Origin: Saprospiraceae bacterium
GTDB taxonomy: Bacteria; Bacteroidota; Bacteroidia; Chitinophagales; Saprospiraceae
Length of the DNA stretch: 64,000 nt
Direction: 5' to 3'
NCBI GenBank assembly: GCA_020631405.1
Contig: JAHDHH010000009.1
Location: 1 to 64,000, forward strand
The notes beneath the pieces are model-generated. The model worked only from the letters and a program-made list of their open reading frames with translations, was not told the origin of the DNA and made no database searches. Numbering within the stretch: the first letter of the stretch is position 1; each line of letters starts with the position of its first letter. The position numbers and the translations under genes were made by a program. Below are positions 8,761 through 63,215 of this stretch, piece after piece.

Positions 8761-9810
8761 TTATTGCTCCTCTATGACATCACGCATACTCTGGCTCAAA
8801 AAATTGAAACTCAAGACTAGTAACATAATAAACAAGGCTGGTATAACAGCCATGAAGACCATACCACTTAGTGCAAAGCCATAGTTTTCATTCAACATAT
8901 TCCCAAGTGAAGGTATGGGTGGACTGACACCAAATCCTAGGTAACTCAACCCTGCTTCTATCAATATAGCAATCGCAAAGTTAGCCGCAGTCATTACCAT
9001 CAAAGGACCTAGGATATTGGGTAAGATATGTCTGAAAATAATTCTTGGAGCACTAGCACCATAGCTCTTTGCTGCTCTGACGAATACTTCTTCTTTTACC
9101 TTGAGTGTCTGACCTCTGACTAGTCTGGCTACGTCTATCCACAGAGTACAACCTACTGCTATAAAAATCACTGAAAGACTACGACCAAATGCCATGACTA
9201 TCGCAAACACAAATAATATAGTAGGAAATGCCCAGAGTGAATTGATGAAAAACATAGTAATCCCATCTATCCACCCACCAAAATATCCACTAAACAGTCC
9301 GACTATCACGCCAATCACTGTAGCTATAAATACTGCAATGAACCCCGCCAATAGAGAGATACGAATGCCGAGGATCAACCTACTCAACATATCTCTCCCA
9401 TACCTATCTGCGCCAAACCAATAATACTTAGTCTTAGTCAATGCCGTGAGGTCTTCTATACTTTGGTACTTGCTGAGTAAGTCATCTTGGTAAATCTTGA
9501 CTTGTCCTCCTATGCTTGTATATTGTAGGGTACCATCAGGACTTAATTTGAGTAATTCATCAAAAGGAATAGTCTTATAGTGTCCCCTAAATCCTCGGAG
9601 TAGAGAAAATCTGCCTTTACCCTTGATCTCTAACATTGTAATCTTTGATAATGGAGGGAGTAAGGATAACTCAGGGTTCTGATTATTAGCATTGCTGGAA
9701 TAATCGGGTATGATGACATAGGCAAACAAGGCACAGAGGATACTCATAGCTATCACTATAAACCCAAACTTGCCAGTAAATGACGATAGGTCCCAATACC
9801 TTCTAAGCAT
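8761..9810 (-). CDS. ABC transporter permease, OppC/DppC type
   Basis: About 350 residues from the ATG at 9810, which overlaps the preceding gene's TAG by 8 bases; an upstream TTG-type extension to 9867 would overlap it by 65 bases and is less credible. One N-terminal membrane helix (GFIVIAMSILCALFAYVII) precedes a periplasmic loop with an RYGRDMLSRLILG block, then five helices with the EAA loop (VRAAKSYGASAPRIIFRHILPNI) that docks onto the ATPase. This is the inner-membrane half of a peptide- or nickel-type importer or related system. No OppB-type partner, ATPase or binding protein is nearby, so the substrate is unknown. It ends the dtd-mazG-permease operon. Confidence 0.9.
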   Translation of the reverse strand: MLRRYWDLSSFTGKFGFIVIAMSILCALFAYVIIPDYSSNANNQNPELSLLPPLSKITMLEIKGKGRFSLLRGFRGHYKTIPFDELLKLSPDGTLQYTSIGGQVKIYQDDLLSKYQSIEDLTALTKTKYYWFGADRYGRDMLSRLILGIRISLLAGFIAVFIATVIGVIVGLFSGYFGGWIDGITMFFINSLWAFPTILFVFAIVMAFGRSLSVIFIAVGCTLWIDVARLVRGQTLKVKEEVFVRAAKSYGASAPRIIFRHILPNILGPLMVMTAANFAIAILIEAGLSYLGFGVSPPIPSLGNMLNENYGFALSGMVFMAVIPALFIMLLVLSFNFLSQSMRDVIEEQ

Positions 9811-10147
9811 TCTTGAGCTTTTTATTATCGTGGTGCCTCTTACCGTCTCTACTTGTCTTGTTGGCAATACTTTTGTTGAGTGCCTCTTCTAAGTTGATAT
9901 CCATTTGGTTAGCTAGGCAGATAACCACGAATAAGATATCTGCCATTTCTTCTGCTATACGCTGTGGAGCTGCTTCCTCATCTTCCTTGTGTTTGAATGA
10001 TTGTTCTCCATAGACTCTACTCATTAGCCTAGCCAACTCTCCTACCTCCTCAGTAAGAACAGTCATATTGGTCAATTCATTAAAGTATCTAACCCCATAT
10101 GTTTTGATCCATTGGTCTATACTTGCTTGTGCTTCTGCTATTGTCAT
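9803..10147 (-). CDS. MazG-like nucleotide pyrophosphohydrolase
   Basis: A 114-residue all-alpha NTP-PPase of the MazG/RS21-C6 type, which hydrolyses (possibly non-canonical) nucleoside triphosphates to monophosphate and pyrophosphate. The metal-binding pattern is visible as LTEEVGELARL followed by IAEEMADILFVVICLANQ, giving the ExxE...ExxD arrangement. Single-domain length is normal for this group. Its start overlaps the dtd stop by 4 bases (ATGA), and its stop overlaps the permease start by 8 bases, so the three are almost certainly one transcript. With Dtd it suggests a small house-cleaning pair. The exact nucleotide preference cannot be read from the sequence. Confidence 0.9.
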   Translation of the reverse strand: MTIAEAQASIDQWIKTYGVRYFNELTNMTVLTEEVGELARLMSRVYGEQSFKHKEDEEAAPQRIAEEMADILFVVICLANQMDINLEEALNKSIANKTSRDGKRHHDNKKLKNA

Positions 10148-10590
10148 TCCTTTGCTTTTGAGTCTATAGTTATCGTGACAGGTCCACTGTTAGTATAAGT
10201 GATATGCATGTCAGCACCAAATATTCCACTTTGGACAGGTAGCTTGGATGCCATTGTTTCTAGAAATGCTTCGTATAGCGGTATGGCAATATCTGGCGGA
10301 GCTGACCGGATGTAGCTAGGGCGATTTCCCTTTTTAGTGCTAGCGTATAGGGTAAACTGAGAAACCACCAAGGCCGCGTACTTCTTATCTAAGACACTAA
10401 GATTCATTCTCCCTTCTGCATCACTGAATATTCGCATATTAACTATCTTATTGACTAACCATTGAATATCTTCTTGTGTATCGTCATGAGTCACTCCTAA
10501 ATAGATGAGTAGCCCATGTTCTATTGCAGAAACCTGCTCCTTATCCACTTCCAGCTTGGCTCGACTTACTCTTTGAATTACTGCTCTCAT
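10144..10590 (-). CDS. dtd: D-aminoacyl-tRNA deacylase
   Basis: A 148-residue enzyme that cleaves D-amino acids (and glycine mischarged on tRNA-Ala) from tRNA, protecting translation. Both family signatures are intact: SQFTLYAS near residue 77 and NSGPVTI near 137, which together form the chiral proofreading site of the dimer. Length is the usual one. It is the first gene of a minus-strand operon with the MazG-like protein and a permease. Upstream lies the candidate replication origin; a perfect DnaA box (10595-10603) is only 5 bases from the start codon, so its promoter must sit inside or overlap the origin region. Confidence 0.95.
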   Translation of the reverse strand: MRAVIQRVSRAKLEVDKEQVSAIEHGLLIYLGVTHDDTQEDIQWLVNKIVNMRIFSDAEGRMNLSVLDKKYAALVVSQFTLYASTKKGNRPSYIRSAPPDIAIPLYEAFLETMASKLPVQSGIFGADMHITYTNSGPVTITIDSKAKE

Positions 10591-10745
10591 GGTCTGTGGA
10601 TAAAACGTTATAAGTTTAAGTTACTAACATAGGTCTTTTTGATTTCAGATACTTACATATCGCAAAGAATTTTGATGTGTAAAAAGTCAAAGTTATTACT
10701 TCAGTACTAAGAAATAACTCACTCGTCGTTATTCACAGTTTTGCA

Positions 10746-10765
10746 TTATACACATGTGTGTATAA
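10746..10765. repeat. Inverted pair of DnaA boxes
   Basis: Two identical TTATACACA boxes face each other with a 2-base spacer (TG), giving a near-perfect 20-base inverted repeat inside the candidate origin. Close head-to-head boxes of this kind could nucleate a DnaA dimer or form a cruciform. Confidence 0.65.
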
Positions 10766-10855
10766 CTTAGCTAAGCTAAAGAATACACTATATCTACCTA
10801 TGTGAATAACTGTAGAATATCTCGTGAGGCTAGACTTATCCACATACCAACATAG

Positions 10856-10911
10856 CTTTATAATAAATGATGTATTCTTTTTTAAAAATCTAATCTACTA
10901 ATATAAATAAA
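10856..10911. other. AT-rich candidate DNA unwinding element
   Basis: Roughly 85 percent A+T by eye, with a T6 run followed by A5 and repeated CTAAT/ACTAAT triplet-like steps (10889-10904). It starts 11 bases after the perfect TTATCCACA box at 10836-10844, the arrangement expected of an unwinding element. This is inference from composition and position only; the region could also carry the promoter of the heme A synthase gene that follows. Confidence 0.5.
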
Positions 10912-10978
10912 GGGTGTGTATATCTCAGAAAAGTCAAGTTTCAAAAAACTAATTACATTCGTTGAGGTTTGAAAATAT

Positions 10979-12031
10979 ATGTATTCAAAAGCAATCAAAT
11001 ACTGGTTAATCATAGGATGTGTCCTGCTCTTCTTTCAAGTGATCATTGGAGGAATAACTAGGATTACAGGTTCTGGTCTTTCTATCACTAAATGGGAAAT
11101 AGTCACTGGGACCCTACCACCAACAAGTGAGCAAGCCTGGGAGGTAGAGTTTGATAAATACAAGACAACACCTCAATACGAGCAAATCAATGTTGGTATG
11201 TCTATGGGAGAGTTTAAGTTTATCTATTTCTGGGAATACTTTCATAGGTTGTGGGCAAGGATGATGGGATTTGTCTTTTTAATAGGAGCCTTAGTGTTTA
11301 GTTTGCGTAAGCAATTAGATTGGCCTCTTTGGAAGCGGCTATTACCAGTTATCGGGTTTGCAATGTTAGCAGCAGTCTTTGGCTGGATCATGGTAGCTAG
11401 TGGGCTTGTCCACCGCCCTTGGGTCAATGCCTATAAATTGTCTATACATTTGGCTATAGCCTTTATCACTTTTGGCTTCTTAGTCAATGCCACACTCTTT
11501 GCTTTTAATAAGCATGATATAGTAGGTAGACCCACTACCCTATTCAAGCTTACTGGTGTCTTGTTAGCTATACAGATTTTGTTCGGTGGAGTGATGTCAG
11601 GGATGAAGGCGGGATTGATCTTTCCTACTTGGCCTGACATGTATGGAGAATATCTACCAAGTATACTGTTGGATAGTGCTTCTTGGAAGTTGGTCAATTT
11701 AGAATTTTATGAACAGAGTGCCTTTGCTCCTGCTTTGGTTCAGTTCCTGCACAGGTCTACAGCATATGGACTTGCAGTATTGGTGGTGTATTTATTGTAT
11801 CGTGTCTATAAGTCGGAGGATGCCACGCTTATTCAGCGTAATGGTGTTTCTCTATTTGCAGGGCTACTGTTACTACAAGTGATAGTTGGTATACTTACTG
11901 TTATAAATTGCATTGGGAGTATTCCACTAGGCTTAGGTGTGCTGCATCAAGCTATTGCCTTGCTGCTAGTCGGTAGCTATGTAGCCATGATATTTTATAT
12001 GAAGCTATCTCCTAGAGAGAAACTCGACTAA
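10979..12031 (+). CDS. ctaA: Heme A synthase, COX15/CtaA family
   Basis: A 350-residue inner-membrane enzyme that oxidises the C8 methyl of heme O to the formyl group of heme A for cytochrome oxidase. It has about eight membrane helices in two four-helix halves. Family motifs are GGITRITGSGLSITKW near residues 23-39, EYFHRLWARMMG with a heme-ligand His, GLVHRPWVN, the second-half FLHRSTAYGL and VLHQAIALLL. Histidines in these four positions are the expected heme ligands. The first gene right of the candidate origin, it is followed by a hydrolase gene after 21 bases. It implies heme-copper respiration with oxygen. No heme O synthase or oxidase subunits are in the window. Confidence 0.95.
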   Translation: MYSKAIKYWLIIGCVLLFFQVIIGGITRITGSGLSITKWEIVTGTLPPTSEQAWEVEFDKYKTTPQYEQINVGMSMGEFKFIYFWEYFHRLWARMMGFVFLIGALVFSLRKQLDWPLWKRLLPVIGFAMLAAVFGWIMVASGLVHRPWVNAYKLSIHLAIAFITFGFLVNATLFAFNKHDIVGRPTTLFKLTGVLLAIQILFGGVMSGMKAGLIFPTWPDMYGEYLPSILLDSASWKLVNLEFYEQSAFAPALVQFLHRSTAYGLAVLVVYLLYRVYKSEDATLIQRNGVSLFAGLLLLQVIVGILTVINCIGSIPLGLGVLHQAIALLLVGSYVAMIFYMKLSPREKLD

Positions 12032-15329: not shown

Positions 15330-15345
15330 TGTTCCACGTGGAACA
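15330..15345. other. parS centromere site (ParB binding)
   Basis: TGTTCCACGTGGAACA is an exact match to the bacterial parS consensus TGTTNCACGTGNAACA; the palindrome extends to 20 bases (15328-15347). It lies in the 274-base gap upstream of the M1 peptidase gene, where no gene is visible. ParB binding here would organise the origin region for segregation. A second copy is at 16042-16057. Confidence 0.88.
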
Positions 15346-15501: not shown

Positions 15502-16023
15502 TTATATCCTATATCCAAGATTGACAGCTATTCTGGGATAATAGGTTTCATAATAGCCATGGTATTTATGTAGTACTCTTCCTATCCCACCTACTACTTC
15601 AGCTATAATTTTGTCATCTCTTAAAAATTTTCCACCAATACTAAGACCCATACCGTGAGCATTGAATGGTTCATGCCAAAATCTTTCAGATTCTCTATAT
15701 ATAATTCCGTGTATTTCTCCAAAGAAACCAATGCTACCATATTTTGTAAAGTACATTCTGTAAAAAGGTAGAATTTGATACTTAACATCAATAGATTCTC
15801 CGATGCTTCTACCTAATGATATACCCACTGATGTATTAGATTTACTCATTATGTACTCATATTCGATTGCGGCTATTGGATCCAGAAGATAAAGTAAGTT
15901 GATCTTTACTTCATGTATGTGATGTGTATTAGCTAGGTTAGTTCTTGGTTTTGTGCTTTGAGCCTGTATGTTGGCAGTAAGAGTAAGAAGGGTAAATAAA
16001 AGAGCTAGCATGTACTCAGGCAT
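15502..16023 (-). CDS. Small exported beta-strand protein (paralogue A), possibly DUF3575-like
   Basis: A 173-residue protein with a signal peptide of about 21 residues (ANIQAQ). The mature part alternates hydrophobic and polar residues: HEVKINLLYLLDPIAAIEYEY, SNTSVGISLGRS, ILPFYRMYF and a closing RIAVNLGYRI with an aromatic-free but barrel-like last strand. This resembles small outer-membrane barrels such as DUF3575; the assignment is tentative. It is a clear paralogue of the next gene (shared HEVK-N, EYEY, KSNTS-GVS-G, ILPFYR, EAHGII, PR-A-NLG). The parS site at 16042-16057 is 19 bases upstream of its start. Met5 is an alternative start. Confidence 0.7.
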   Translation of the reverse strand: MPEYMLALLFTLLTLTANIQAQSTKPRTNLANTHHIHEVKINLLYLLDPIAAIEYEYIMSKSNTSVGISLGRSIGESIDVKYQILPFYRMYFTKYGSIGFFGEIHGIIYRESERFWHEPFNAHGMGLSIGGKFLRDDKIIAEVVGGIGRVLHKYHGYYETYYPRIAVNLGYRI

Positions 16024-16041: not shown

Positions 16042-16057
16042 TGTTCCACGTGGAACA
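16042..16057. other. Second parS centromere site
   Basis: A second exact TGTTCCACGTGGAACA, 712 bases from the first, sits in the 71-base gap between the two paralogous small protein genes. It would overlap the promoter of the 15502-16023 gene, so ParB binding may affect its transcription. Two perfect copies so close together make a chance palindrome very unlikely. Confidence 0.88.
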
Positions 16058-21065: not shown

Positions 21066-22898
21066 ATGTTCCTGAGGATAAAGATCGTGTGTATAGTGAT
21101 GTTAATAGCCGTTGGACTATTAGCCCAGGAGAACACTGCAGTCATAGTAGATGATGTCCTAATCACATCTACATCTATAACCAGTGATTTTAGAGATAGC
21201 CTCTCTACTCATACTCCAATCATAGAGGCATTGACTCGGGAGTCAAACCTCTATCTCAAGACTAATGGACTAGGGACTTCTATTACATCAGCATACCAAG
21301 GAGGTAATGCAAGTCATACCACAGTATTGGTCAATGGAATTCCAGTAGCCAACCCTCTTATTGGACAGACAGATTTTTCCTTATTACAAACCATACCAGT
21401 CACTAAGGCTGCACTAGTCAATGATCTCAATGAAGGATACACAGGAGCAGTCGCGGGCAGCCTATCCTTAGAGACATATCAAGCCTTCTCTCCTAAGCAA
21501 GTAGTTAATTATGGGATGACGGCAAAGACATTTCACCATTGGGCACATGACCTTTCCATTTCTTCAGCAAGTGACAAGTATACTGTTTTAGCAACAGCTA
21601 CACGACTTACCTCAGATAATAGCTACCCATTCTACATTCCAGAATTGGATAAAGACTCTAGGCAGACACATTCTCGGCAAGAGCTAACAGAGGCGAGCAT
21701 ACACCTAGGATACAAAATCAATGACCAGCATACTTTGCAAGGATTTTTTTGGTACAATGACCAAGAAAGAGAAATTCCACCCACGCTGACTCAGACTAGG
21801 AGTGAACAATACCAAGAAGATAATTTTAAGAAGGTAGGCTTGTCATACACTGGAAGTCTTGGTAAATATTATCTAAAGTCTAATTATGGCTATACTGACC
21901 AGACCCTCTTATTTGTAGATGGAGTTTCTCGTTTTCCAGCAGCATTTCAACAGCATTATTATTCTATGAATGCCTCAAGGAAACTTGCAAACAAGTGGAC
22001 GCAATCTTATACCTATGCTCTTGATAGGAATGTTGGACAGAATCATTCATACCAATCAGACCAATTGCTCCAAACGCAGACTATCACAGTTGAGGTCAAT
22101 AGAAGGACTACAAAATATAGCACCCAAGTTATTGGGCAAATTATCTATACTTCGCTAGACAATCCCTGGGGATTTACCTGGAAGATTAGCCAAGCGAGAC
22201 AACTACAGCGAGGGAGTATCAAGGCAAGTATCAAAAAACTCTGGAGACCACCATCACTCAATGACTTGTTTTGGATAGGCGGAGGTAATGAGGCCTTACT
22301 TCCAGAGTCAGGATATGGAGTGATGTTAGGCTATCAGTCTAACCAAGGCAAGGTGCTACCAATCCAAGTCAGTCTATTCTCTAGGTGGGTGGATGACTAT
22401 ATCTTATGGAGGCCTACGGACTCTAGTCCTGTCTGGCAAGCGAGCAATATCAGTACTGTGTGGAGTCGAGGTATGGATTTTCAACTTTCTTATACCAAGC
22501 CAGTATACAAAGGCAAGGTGTCACTCTTGACAAAACATCAACTGGCATACTCATCGTCATTTGAAACGATATCAGGAATAGGGCTTGTCAAAGCTCAACA
22601 ACTGATCTATACACCAATCTATACCAACCTCCTCATCTTAGGTTACGAAGGGTCATCCTCATCAGCTAGGCTTTATGGTAGGTCTACCTCTAGTTATCAG
22701 GGAATCAACGAAACCGTAGAGGGTAGTATCTTGTTTGATGCGAGTATTACTCAGCATATAGACTTAGGAAAGCGACTAACTCTAGCTATGACATTGGAGG
22801 TCAACAACTTACTAGACAACACCTATTATATTATAGAAAGAAGACCGATGCCGGGTAGGCACGGGAGTTTAAAACTGCTATTTTCGTGCAAACAATAA
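21066..22898 (+). CDS. TonB-dependent receptor, BtuB-like
   Basis: A 610-residue outer-membrane receptor, about the length of E. coli BtuB. The signal peptide ends at LLAQ (about residue 21). The plug (about 30-140) has AYQGGNASHTTVLVNGIPVANPLIG and TDFSLLQTIPV, which resembles the plug of Bacteroidota vitamin-B12 or related receptors. The rest is a 22-strand-type barrel, with LEVNNLLDNTYYIIERRPMPGRH near the end as in many receptors. The final residues run past the usual terminal aromatic. I see no cobalamin riboswitch in the 180 bases upstream. It starts a three-gene run with the DUF4465 and DUF6265 genes. Substrate B12-like by analogy only. Confidence 0.88.
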   Translation: MFLRIKIVCIVMLIAVGLLAQENTAVIVDDVLITSTSITSDFRDSLSTHTPIIEALTRESNLYLKTNGLGTSITSAYQGGNASHTTVLVNGIPVANPLIGQTDFSLLQTIPVTKAALVNDLNEGYTGAVAGSLSLETYQAFSPKQVVNYGMTAKTFHHWAHDLSISSASDKYTVLATATRLTSDNSYPFYIPELDKDSRQTHSRQELTEASIHLGYKINDQHTLQGFFWYNDQEREIPPTLTQTRSEQYQEDNFKKVGLSYTGSLGKYYLKSNYGYTDQTLLFVDGVSRFPAAFQQHYYSMNASRKLANKWTQSYTYALDRNVGQNHSYQSDQLLQTQTITVEVNRRTTKYSTQVIGQIIYTSLDNPWGFTWKISQARQLQRGSIKASIKKLWRPPSLNDLFWIGGGNEALLPESGYGVMLGYQSNQGKVLPIQVSLFSRWVDDYILWRPTDSSPVWQASNISTVWSRGMDFQLSYTKPVYKGKVSLLTKHQLAYSSSFETISGIGLVKAQQLIYTPIYTNLLILGYEGSSSSARLYGRSTSSYQGINETVEGSILFDASITQHIDLGKRLTLAMTLEVNNLLDNTYYIIERRPMPGRHGSLKLLFSCKQ

Positions 22899-61400: not shown

Positions 61401-63215
61401 CAAGTTGGCCCAGAGCCAGGAGTTGGTAACCAACCAGGGTCAGTCATTCAAAACAGTCAAGACAGATCTTTAAATGCCACATTTAGCTTTGACAAACTCT
61501 ATAACAAGAGTAAGTATGTCAAAAAACTAGACGGTAAAGGTTCTTCTTCATCAAGGTCTTCTCGAGGAGGCAGTAGGGGAGGAATCAAAAGAGAAGGAGC
61601 AGAAACAGCTGATGCAAAGAATACACCAGAAGACAGAAAGAAGAAATCTGATAAGTCTAAGGTGAGTACCATAGAAAAACTATTGGTAAGACCACTATTC
61701 TCTCTGCGTACTGTGAAGTTTTCATTGAGAGAGAGCTTCTCCACCTTAATCCCAGGATTTGGGGGTAACGTAGGAGATGGAGAGTCCTTCAATCCTAGGT
61801 TCTTAGGACTTACCGATGGCTTTGATGCGCCAGGGTGGGACTTCGTTGCAGGTATCCAACCTAATATTCAAAAGTCAGCAGGTAATGACAATTGGCTCTA
61901 TCAGAATCAAGAGTGGTGGAACGAGAGCCTTGTACTCAATAAGCAGATAATGCAAAAGAGAAGCCTAGACATCAATCTAGATGTAGAGCTAGAGCCATGG
62001 AAGGATGTGGATATTGATGTGGAGTTTTATAAAAGGACGAGTTTAGACCACTCAGAAGAGTTTACGTTCTTGGACAAGACAGCAAGTGACCCAGACTTTA
62101 ATAGAGGGTTCTACCAACAGGCCCTCTATGATGTGGGTTCAGTAGAGTTTAGTTACTTCACAATGAATACTCTGTTTGGAGATCGTAGACAAAAGTCTAT
62201 TGACCTATTTAATACCATGAGAACAAATAGGGCTACAATATCACAAAGGCTTGGTACAGCAAACGGTGTTACAGGAGCTCATGAAATAGATGGAGAAGAG
62301 TATGTCAGTGGTTTTGGTAAGTTGAACAATGATGTCGTTGTTCCTGCATTTATTGCTGCATATACAGACCAAGATGCCAATACAATAGGTCTCGACATCC
62401 TTGGAGATGTACAGAAGAATAGTTTTCTACCAAGACCAAATTGGAGCTTGAGGTACAATGGACTGAGTAAGTTATCATGGTTTAAGGATTGGGTGAAGTC
62501 ATTTACGCTTAAGCATGGATATAAGTCTGTATTCACGATCAATAGATTTAACTCTGACCCACAGAACGAAAAATTGGGTCTAGAATCTGGTGACCCTCAA
62601 CTCAAAGCAGCATCTCAAAATTACTACACTAGGTGGGAGATTCCTTCGATACAGATTAGTGAGCAATTTAATCCGATCATAGGATTCGATATTCAGACTA
62701 AGAGTAATGTACAAGTCAACTTCGAATACAAAAAATCAAGGCTTCTTGACTTATTCACAACTGTCGGAGAGCTGAGAGAGCAGAAGAGTACAGAGTTTGT
62801 TTTTGGTTTTGGCTTTGAAATGGAAGATGTCAATATTGGATTCTTAACAGGAGATAGAAAAGGCAAGAAGAAGAGAAAGTCATCAACCAATAGGAGTTCG
62901 AGACAGGGAGGTCTAGGTACTATTTTAGACAATGGAGACTCTGCTCAAATACCAAGAAGTCTCATCTTTGACCTCTCTCTATCGTGGGCAGATAATATTA
63001 CCTATGCCCATGATCTGAAGAATGATGCTATCGACCCACAGGCCGTGAGGGGTACGACGCAGTTCAGGATTAGTCCGAGTATAGAGTATGATATCAATAA
63101 GAATTTGTCATTGAGATGGTATGGAGAATATGGGCAGACTACGCCGCATGTCACACCACCATTCCCAGTGACTAACTTTGAGACAGCCTTCGTTGTGAGA
63201 TTTAAGTTGAACTAG
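55479..63215 (+). CDS. sprA: SprA (Sov) type IX secretion outer-membrane translocon
   Basis: A 2578-residue outer-membrane protein, slightly longer than the roughly 2400 residues of the Flavobacterium protein. The signal peptide ends about residue 22 (RVSAS). SprA forms an exceptionally large 36-strand barrel that carries type IX cargo out of the periplasm. Features: plug/strand region IDITLGTSYQFVNNGIFPGRKI, the SprA pattern SGNYNSIGWGSIDQR, long extracellular inserts rich in Lys/Arg (PKKGQRSDK near 1705, SSSRSSRGGSRGG near 2030), and a last strand AFVVRFKLN. It takes the cargo seen at 2-2568 and 22912-23877. ruvA precedes it; rhomboid genes follow. Confidence 0.95.
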   Translation: MNKIGLLSSVILACLCVGRVSASGWSDLLKDENAYWLSPETDTIPITDRDGDFTTQDFDNPFDIYPSDVEQAIEYDPASDTYIITEKIGDEYFRMPSFMTFEEYLEYKSKEEEKNYFGKLSGFGSDDRGKSGLIDPMSRLNIKDKLTDRLFGGTDINIKPQGNIDITLGTSYQFVNNGIFPGRKIDRWQIPLFEQNIKMNVDGNIGKKMDLGFNYDTQATFDFDRKINLVYDADEFSEDDIIRKIEAGNVKLPLRSSLIQGSQELFGLKTELQFGNLTLTAVAAQQRSKPKKLSVQNGATVQEFEIKPTEYDENRHFFISHYHRNAYEDALSKMPHILSSFTIANLEVWISDDRLDYNENSTQIVMINDLGEPYNIYENDTLFSKLDADYFIDDMFFDPLLRDVKGVRLPSNKSNDLYRRLVEDNSETRENKNVTQNLKTLSDYELTETRDFEKFKGRMLNPSEYTFNPELGFISLNIRLQPSQQLGVSYEYFYTQNCDEVYQVGELVTDSQISSTDSTGLAQSESVVYVKMLKNSTQSINHPTWDLMMKNVYALRTNNLTQEDFVLDIFFEDDRNKGELTKYISEPGYDRVPLLNLFNLDRLNSVSDPQPDGVFDFVPGVTVIPRNGAILFPVLEPFGSAITSYEADDQTTYTLPDSLIFEELYTEAKVIAETDYLDKNKFIIKGQYKSNTSSEISLGSWNIPKGSVRVRAGGRELIEGVDYEVEYGRGLLRILNEAYLQQGVPLDISLEDSSFFSLQQKDMLGLRADYEVSKDLRLGGTILKLKERPFTQKVNIGDDPINNTIYGLDLNYEKEAPWLTKALDALPIYSTNAESRISVSAEGALLKPGHNRRINLSDEEKDPVVNIDDFEGAVTGLPLGTQPFAWQLASIPNTSDFPEYNEIGVETGVNRASMTWYIADINARTPDDADNPYSRGVLQTELFENRQIPTQLQRDLYTFDIAYDPTLRGPYNFDEPDGTAHSAGFERYDNELGLILSEPEKRWAGIMRYLNTNDFQAANYEFIDFWMLDPFLDQVGYDGQIDSSNTMAESGVISFHLGNVSEDILKDGVQCYENAISVTANSVRVDETEFGNIPDNVPVTGSFDIDTKEEQDLGLDAMDRSAELTKHEEWLNRVNQAFNNNIPIVEDDPSGDDFYYFGDTRFDNNENLVNKYRFFSNSENNSPDIQNNNISLNSGVNSNVRGKFQPDSEELNGNSSLNESENFYKYDINIVKDQQTGRLDTIATDYITDQVTVSDRDETWYRFRIPIQDENVLEKVGDIDGFRSIQFMRMITRGFSSRKIFRMAEFELVRSQWRKARGVCDRGDIDGPNTDTQTSFNLDIRGIEENSKKTPFGYLLPPDIKREEVYNSINSTLLDERALSMNFDNFESGCRVAMNKVLELDLRLFKRLQMFVHAEELPTSPDIENGDLELFVKLGKDFDDNYYEYSIPLVMSEEGVYGPDVDSTDQNVVWRPENKLDITLDSLTKLKRDRDNMSEPRDVLFDRVTNDFQHRIGVIGTPSLGAIKAIQIGVRNVRPVGDMVNYPNVGGEVWVNELRAVGFDERGGLAALAQVDVQLADLGNLTLSGNYNSIGWGSIDQRLNDRSKEENISYDIATSLQLGKFLPSNWGVRVPFYAQYAKTISNPQFHPFDSDITMEEKLADAANATERAQIKRESQDVTTIKTYNFTNVKKERKVNSGTATSKPKKGQRSDKTVDGGAVSNADLDKAAQEKAKLKEKRRNTPKPWDISNFSVSYGYTETDIRDPLLEYDNTKQYRGALDYTYSRKVNYIEPFKKLKSKHLDIIKEFNFNLLPNSFSFNTTLDKKYKRRKFRLPNVPVFEFDEKNFSFERRYDLKWDFTKSLSLKFNAVNSSFIDELRQVGIADTAEARSWEDEEGKSAAENGINYTNEVNNNPDYVTEYWKNNLWDGGRDKNYGHQINLNYTLPIRYLPFMDWIKMTAQYKASYDWAASPLIVIDQVGPEPGVGNQPGSVIQNSQDRSLNATFSFDKLYNKSKYVKKLDGKGSSSSRSSRGGSRGGIKREGAETADAKNTPEDRKKKSDKSKVSTIEKLLVRPLFSLRTVKFSLRESFSTLIPGFGGNVGDGESFNPRFLGLTDGFDAPGWDFVAGIQPNIQKSAGNDNWLYQNQEWWNESLVLNKQIMQKRSLDINLDVELEPWKDVDIDVEFYKRTSLDHSEEFTFLDKTASDPDFNRGFYQQALYDVGSVEFSYFTMNTLFGDRRQKSIDLFNTMRTNRATISQRLGTANGVTGAHEIDGEEYVSGFGKLNNDVVVPAFIAAYTDQDANTIGLDILGDVQKNSFLPRPNWSLRYNGLSKLSWFKDWVKSFTLKHGYKSVFTINRFNSDPQNEKLGLESGDPQLKAASQNYYTRWEIPSIQISEQFNPIIGFDIQTKSNVQVNFEYKKSRLLDLFTTVGELREQKSTEFVFGFGFEMEDVNIGFLTGDRKGKKKRKSSTNRSSRQGGLGTILDNGDSAQIPRSLIFDLSLSWADNITYAHDLKNDAIDPQAVRGTTQFRISPSIEYDINKNLSLRWYGEYGQTTPHVTPPFPVTNFETAFVVRFKLN

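Follow-up and report, generated by a model that had tools for sequence, protein, structure and literature searches.

The stretch of DNA analyzed here, which we call the window, is 64,000 nucleotides long and lies on contig C93 (76 kb) of a draft genome of a Saprospiraceae bacterium (G000; 94 contigs, 3.79 Mb, 93.6% complete). Within it, the heme A synthase gene ctaA and a dtd-mazG gene pair diverge from a gap that contains a cluster of DnaA boxes and is probably the chromosomal origin of replication (oriC). The features of this locus are collected in Table 1.

Table 1. Genes and sequence features at the dtd/ctaA locus, with positions in the window
Feature	Position	Strand	Remarks
mazG-like nucleotide pyrophosphohydrolase, flanking gene	9803..10147	-	PF03819
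dtd, D-Tyr-tRNA deacylase family, flanking gene	10144..10590	-	PF02580
Gene-free gap, probable oriC	10591..10978	.	388 bp, 71% AT, between divergent dtd and ctaA
DnaA box TTATCCACA	10595..10603	-	exact match; G001 has TTATACACA at matching spacing from ctaA (-383; here -384)
Weaker DnaA box TTTTACACA	10676..10684	-	fits relaxed pattern TTWTNCACA
DnaA box TTATTCACA	10729..10737	+	exact in 3/4 aligned genus genomes; TTTTTCACA in the fourth (L016)
Head-to-head DnaA box pair TTATACACA, 2-bp spacer	10746..10765		members 10746-10754 (+), 10757-10765 (-)
DnaA box TTATTCACA	10801..10809	-	G001 box at equal position (-178)
DnaA box TTATCCACA, last before AT-rich stretch	10836..10844	+	exact TTATNCACA in 3/4 genus genomes; one mismatch in the fourth (L018)
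Candidate unwinding element	10859..10908	.	least stable 50 bp of the window; partly conserved in genus alignment
ctaA/COX15 heme A synthase, flanking gene	10979..12031	+	PF02628
parS site TGTTCCACGTGGAACA	15330..15345	.	between ORFs; 4.4 kb from ctaA start
parS site TGTTCCACGTGGAACA	16042..16057	.	between ORFs; 5.1 kb from ctaA start

The original prediction of an origin described six exact boxes within 250 bases, located in gene-free space between divergent genes. All six are present with the positions and strands given in Table 1, and the gap indeed contains no genes, with dtd on the minus strand and ctaA on the plus strand. In dinucleotide shuffles, exact TTATNCACA boxes numbered 0.04 on average and two at most, and none of 5,000 shuffles reached the six found in the gap. 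Copies with one mismatch occur at 10541 and 10915. Outside the cluster, the window has just one further exact box, at 62,751. The box TTATCCACA is also given in a passage of PMC10225481.

Exact boxes are not enriched genome-wide in general, given that the 94 contigs hold 132 of them, compared with 149 matches to a reversed control pattern. Among all 132, those outside the cluster include one pair within 500 bp (on contig C5) and no group of three, so the search for similarly dense clusters elsewhere in the draft genome yielded at most two boxes within 500 bp. A rival cluster may still sit in a part that this 93.6% complete draft lacks, or may be split by a contig end.

The absence of dnaA beside the cluster was also correctly predicted: the sole dnaA match of the genome lies on contig C3. 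No exact box occurs in about 31 kb around this gene (L009, L011, L012), and the cluster does not belong to the class of dnaA-adjacent origins. Similarly, a single box was counted across 15 dnaA loci from relatives (L045-L059), each 2.6-3.5 kb long. The DnaA protein carries the motif GGKDHSTV, which resembles the DNA-binding signature of E. coli DnaA, and ordinary boxes are therefore expected as its targets.

The AT-rich stretch that was predicted to follow the boxes is real. Stability was calculated from nearest-neighbor energies in 50-bp and 100-bp windows across the full 64 kb; positions 10859-10908 rank first at the smaller size and positions 10856-10955 rank second at the larger one. DnaA-trio runs next to the boxes do not exceed chance, as there are at most three NTN triplets; for the two boxes in question, 47% and 61% of shuffles contain as many. 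An oriC of the E. coli or B. subtilis type has TTATNCACA box arrays beside an AT-rich unwinding region, and the gap is alike in both respects. It differs from this type in that it is not next to dnaA and has no DnaA-trio run beyond chance.

The consensus of the ParB centromere is TGTTNCACGTGNAACA. The two parS sites in Table 1 are the only exact sites in the genome, and a short ORF (15502-16023) lies between them. They were not mentioned in the original prediction, and they support the reading of the gap as an origin. According to a passage of PMC7022226, the majority of species that possess ParAB-parS carry two or more parS sites near oriC. The locus is likewise similar to a ParABS-marked origin region in having two parS sites about 5 kb away. 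Unlike in such a region, the genome's single ParB_N (parB) match lies elsewhere, on contig C20.

The proximity of parS to ctaA extends to relatives. Our parS-ctaA table covers 53 of the 80 parS-positive genomes. Among the genomes listed, parS and ctaA share a contig in 23 of 30 Saprospiraceae, and they are 4.2 to 33.3 kb apart, i.e., all within 34 kb. In the remaining seven, the two are on different contigs, which is uninformative. Among the listed genomes from other families of the order, parS and ctaA share a contig in three of 23, at distances of 6, 52 and 169 kb, such that one is within 34 kb. Genomes G020, G022, G042, G046 and G076 are listed without a ctaA match, and exact parS sites are absent from 11 of the 61 genomes in the family set, G045 included.

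A GC-skew turn had also been expected at this position. This expectation was borne out at the equivalent site in relatives, but a turn is not clear in the window's own 76-kb contig. One such relative is G060, whose 4,345,237-bp chromosome record is numbered from dnaA (C1 617). Its ctaA gene starts at 2,051,803, and ten exact boxes lie upstream of ctaA, in 339 bp from 2,052,345. Cumulative GC skew, sampled in 40 stretches of 20 kb, reaches its minimum at 2,030,001-2,050,000, next to this box cluster. If the origin is placed at ctaA, the two arms have skews of -0.024 and +0.013 (Mann-Whitney p = 0.001), and the sign is reversed for an origin at dnaA. The best split of the arms is at 1.95-1.98 Mb, slightly above that at 2.05 Mb (0.0380 vs 0.0369). 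Since sampled skew peaks at 0.46 Mb rather than opposite ctaA, these data do not place the terminus. Away from ctaA, the remaining 38 stretches (760 kb) contain 14 boxes. G060 also has a second group of boxes at 2,044,974-2,045,370, about 7 kb from the main cluster, in which four boxes are interleaved with two parS sites.

In G045, 14 of 15 stretches on a 1.26-Mb contig have negative skew. The sole positive stretch, from 1,220,001, contains ctaA (1,222,266), and the sign does not change at dnaA (286 kb). Beyond ctaA, which has a single exact box upstream, this contig continues for only about 36 kb.

We also compared skew on the two sides of ctaA, using loci that were hand-picked by title and length (29 Saprospiraceae and 19 other loci, with 27 and 18 left after a length rule was applied). 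Skew is higher to the right of ctaA than to the left in 24 of the 27 Saprospiraceae loci (p = 1.3e-5), versus four of the 18 other ctaA loci, some of which are titled as other phyla. Loci with too little flanking sequence were skipped, leaving 25 and 15 for the location of the local cumulative-skew minimum. In 13 of 25 Saprospiraceae loci (1.8 expected if uniform), this minimum is located in the interval from 1 kb upstream to 200 bp downstream of the ctaA start; in the other 12 it lies outside. None of the 15 other loci (1.1 expected), which again include some titled as other phyla, has its minimum in the interval. In stretches taken from six individual genomes, the local minimum is 22 to 389 bp away from where ctaA starts in G031, G034, G035 and G036, 1.6 kb away in G009 and 5.7 kb away in G024.

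The boxes themselves recur upstream of ctaA in Saprospiraceae, unlike at ctaA loci from elsewhere. Those of G001, at -383, -248, -221, -178 and -143 from ctaA, correspond closely to those at -384, -250, -222, -178 and -143 here. G002 and G003, which like G001 belong to the same genus, have two exact boxes each, and the alignment shows additional degenerate ones. Exact boxes occur within 900 bp upstream of ctaA in 31 of 40 named Saprospiraceae loci with sufficient flanks, and are lacking in nine. Together, the 40 upstream regions hold 47 boxes in 36,000 bp (1.31 per kb) and five matches to the reversed pattern, compared with 0.066 boxes per kb elsewhere in the same loci. The Saprospiraceae counts omit ten loci by title (L091, L092, L095, L096, L101, L103, L104, L106, L107 and L108), a choice made after the box counts had been seen; the omitted loci hold one box in all (in L104). 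Across all 80 loci, the 71,460 bp upstream of ctaA contain 49 boxes and six matches to the reversed pattern, and the remaining 1,310,049 bp contain 59 boxes.

The other neighbors are less constant. Divergent dtd-mazG genes occur upstream of ctaA in 25 of the 52 loci L060-L111, and in none of the 28 loci L112-L139. We therefore rejected dtd as a constant neighbor, given that it is not near ctaA in the latter 28 loci and is about 214 kb from the boxes in G060. The neighborhood of the origin had been called uncommon, which holds only with reservations: the dtd-mazG/ctaA arrangement recurs in the loci just mentioned, and a passage of PMC4755523 describes an oriC remote from dnaA as a common situation in the phylum Bacteroidetes.

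The query ctaA was not found in G046. Another, strongly divergent gene of the COX15-CtaA family lies beside a box group in this genome (L207, G046:C3 13117-16272). This gene and SRAP, dtd and mazG flank five TTWTNCACA boxes within 500 bp, three of which are exact TTATNCACA; parS is about 4 kb away. Perhaps the CtaA-family gene was replaced or is evolving rapidly in place, with the origin kept.

The G046 locus also bears on the function of the boxes. Since boxes between two divergent genes are located where promoters are expected, they could instead titrate DnaA or serve in regulation (as a datA-like site, or as part of promoters through which DnaA controls dtd and ctaA), with the origin elsewhere. 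We regard this as quite improbable, given that parS is 4.4 kb away, in a linkage seen across the family, that skew turns at the equivalent site in relatives, and that the draft genome has no other cluster. Moreover, in G046 a box group lies between the strongly diverged CtaA-family gene and SRAP-dtd-mazG, with parS nearby.

The window's own contig raises a different question. Its cumulative GC skew is lowest at 22,165 (-202), compared with -131 at 10.7 kb, and the genome consists of 94 unordered contigs. Since this minimum is 11 kb away from the gap, the skew evidence rests on relatives. The minimum and the location of parS at 15.3-16.1 kb would both fit an origin within a few tens of kb, e.g., near parS or 22 kb, to which the box cluster is an accessory. 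Yet the only other exact box of the window is at 62,751, the least stable 50 bp adjoin the clustered boxes, and 13 of 25 family loci have their local skew minimum around the start of ctaA, making such a displaced origin very improbable. It is extremely improbable that this contig represents a plasmid or a second replicon with an origin of its own: dnaA is indeed on a different contig, but ybeY, dtd and ctaA are on this one, and ctaA is on the dnaA-bearing contig in G060 and G045.

The evidence for the dtd/ctaA gap thus consists of boxes, an unstable stretch, parS sites, recurrence in relatives and a skew turn in relatives, all at the level of sequence. We consider it very likely that this gap is the oriC of this Saprospiraceae bacterium. 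The prediction of a chromosomal origin that is not next to dnaA is accordingly supported by the lone box cluster, the nearby parS sites and the skew turn in relatives. From this, we infer that the proteins DnaA and ParB bind at the locus, and that the DNA is unwound and replication initiated at the gap.

In the mechanism that we propose, DnaA, encoded on another contig, would bind the array of 9-mer boxes and assemble towards the last box (10836-10844). It would then open the very AT-rich stretch at 10859-10908, where the helicase could be loaded, leading to two-way replication. ParB, likewise encoded on another contig, would be loaded at the two parS sites, at a distance of about 5 kb, and would help to separate the newly copied origins.

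A box cluster at a GC-skew turn and away from dnaA is likewise described for the first chromosome of Prevotella intermedia OMA14 in part of PMC4755523. The cluster here has its address at ctaA and dtd-mazG, with parS nearby. By title and beginning of abstract, our literature search returned no paper on a Saprospiraceae origin or on an oriC with ctaA; the DoriC database, which was outside this search, may hold predictions. In the Saprospiraceae genome papers PMC3156403 and PMC10508125, the terms oriC and dnaA are absent from the main text. Within the literature searched, the conserved ctaA/dtd address with nearby parS therefore seems to be previously unreported. We rate the origin as ordinary in function, and its conserved address in Saprospiraceae as the distinguishing point.

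With a little less than even confidence, we suggest that the Saprospiraceae origin has remained fixed at one address while dnaA moved freely. This address would comprise a CtaA-family gene, the boxes, SRAP/dtd/mazG in many members and parS within tens of kb, and the initiator gene may lie near the terminus. In G060, about 120 kb separate dnaA from the position on the chromosome that faces the predicted origin. This gene may therefore be near the terminus of this one genome, in which the terminus is not mapped, and have the lowest gene dosage, which is the opposite of the usual layout.

The locus offers this large family a defined origin address that can be tested; no origin paper for the family was found in the literature searched. 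The G060 record is numbered from dnaA, about half a chromosome away from the predicted origin. Knowing the correct origin would make it possible to estimate growth rates from metagenome coverage and to build plasmids on the natural origin.

Pairs of boxes were not useful for locating the origin in other genomes. We rejected the exact head-to-head pair as a signature, since, of 100 genomes, only this one and G035 contain it, with a single copy in G035 that is not on the ctaA contig. Allowing up to 30 bp between the two boxes, 12 of 24 genomes match. These pairs are at ctaA in just three of the 12 (G000, G001 and G060) and away from it in G021, G034, G035, G036, G046, G062, G077, G079 and G090, so we also rejected this version of the detector as not specific. 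The G077 pair, in another family of the order, is head-to-head and located about 1 kb from dtd and far from ctaA (L196, G077:C13, 964283-964316). Consisting of two boxes only, it may be due to chance. In G092, four TTWTNCACA boxes occur within 500 bp (L202, G092:C1, 1,082,702-1,083,021), about 3.4 kb from parS sites. This group, which is on a contig other than that of ctaA, is a candidate origin in another family.
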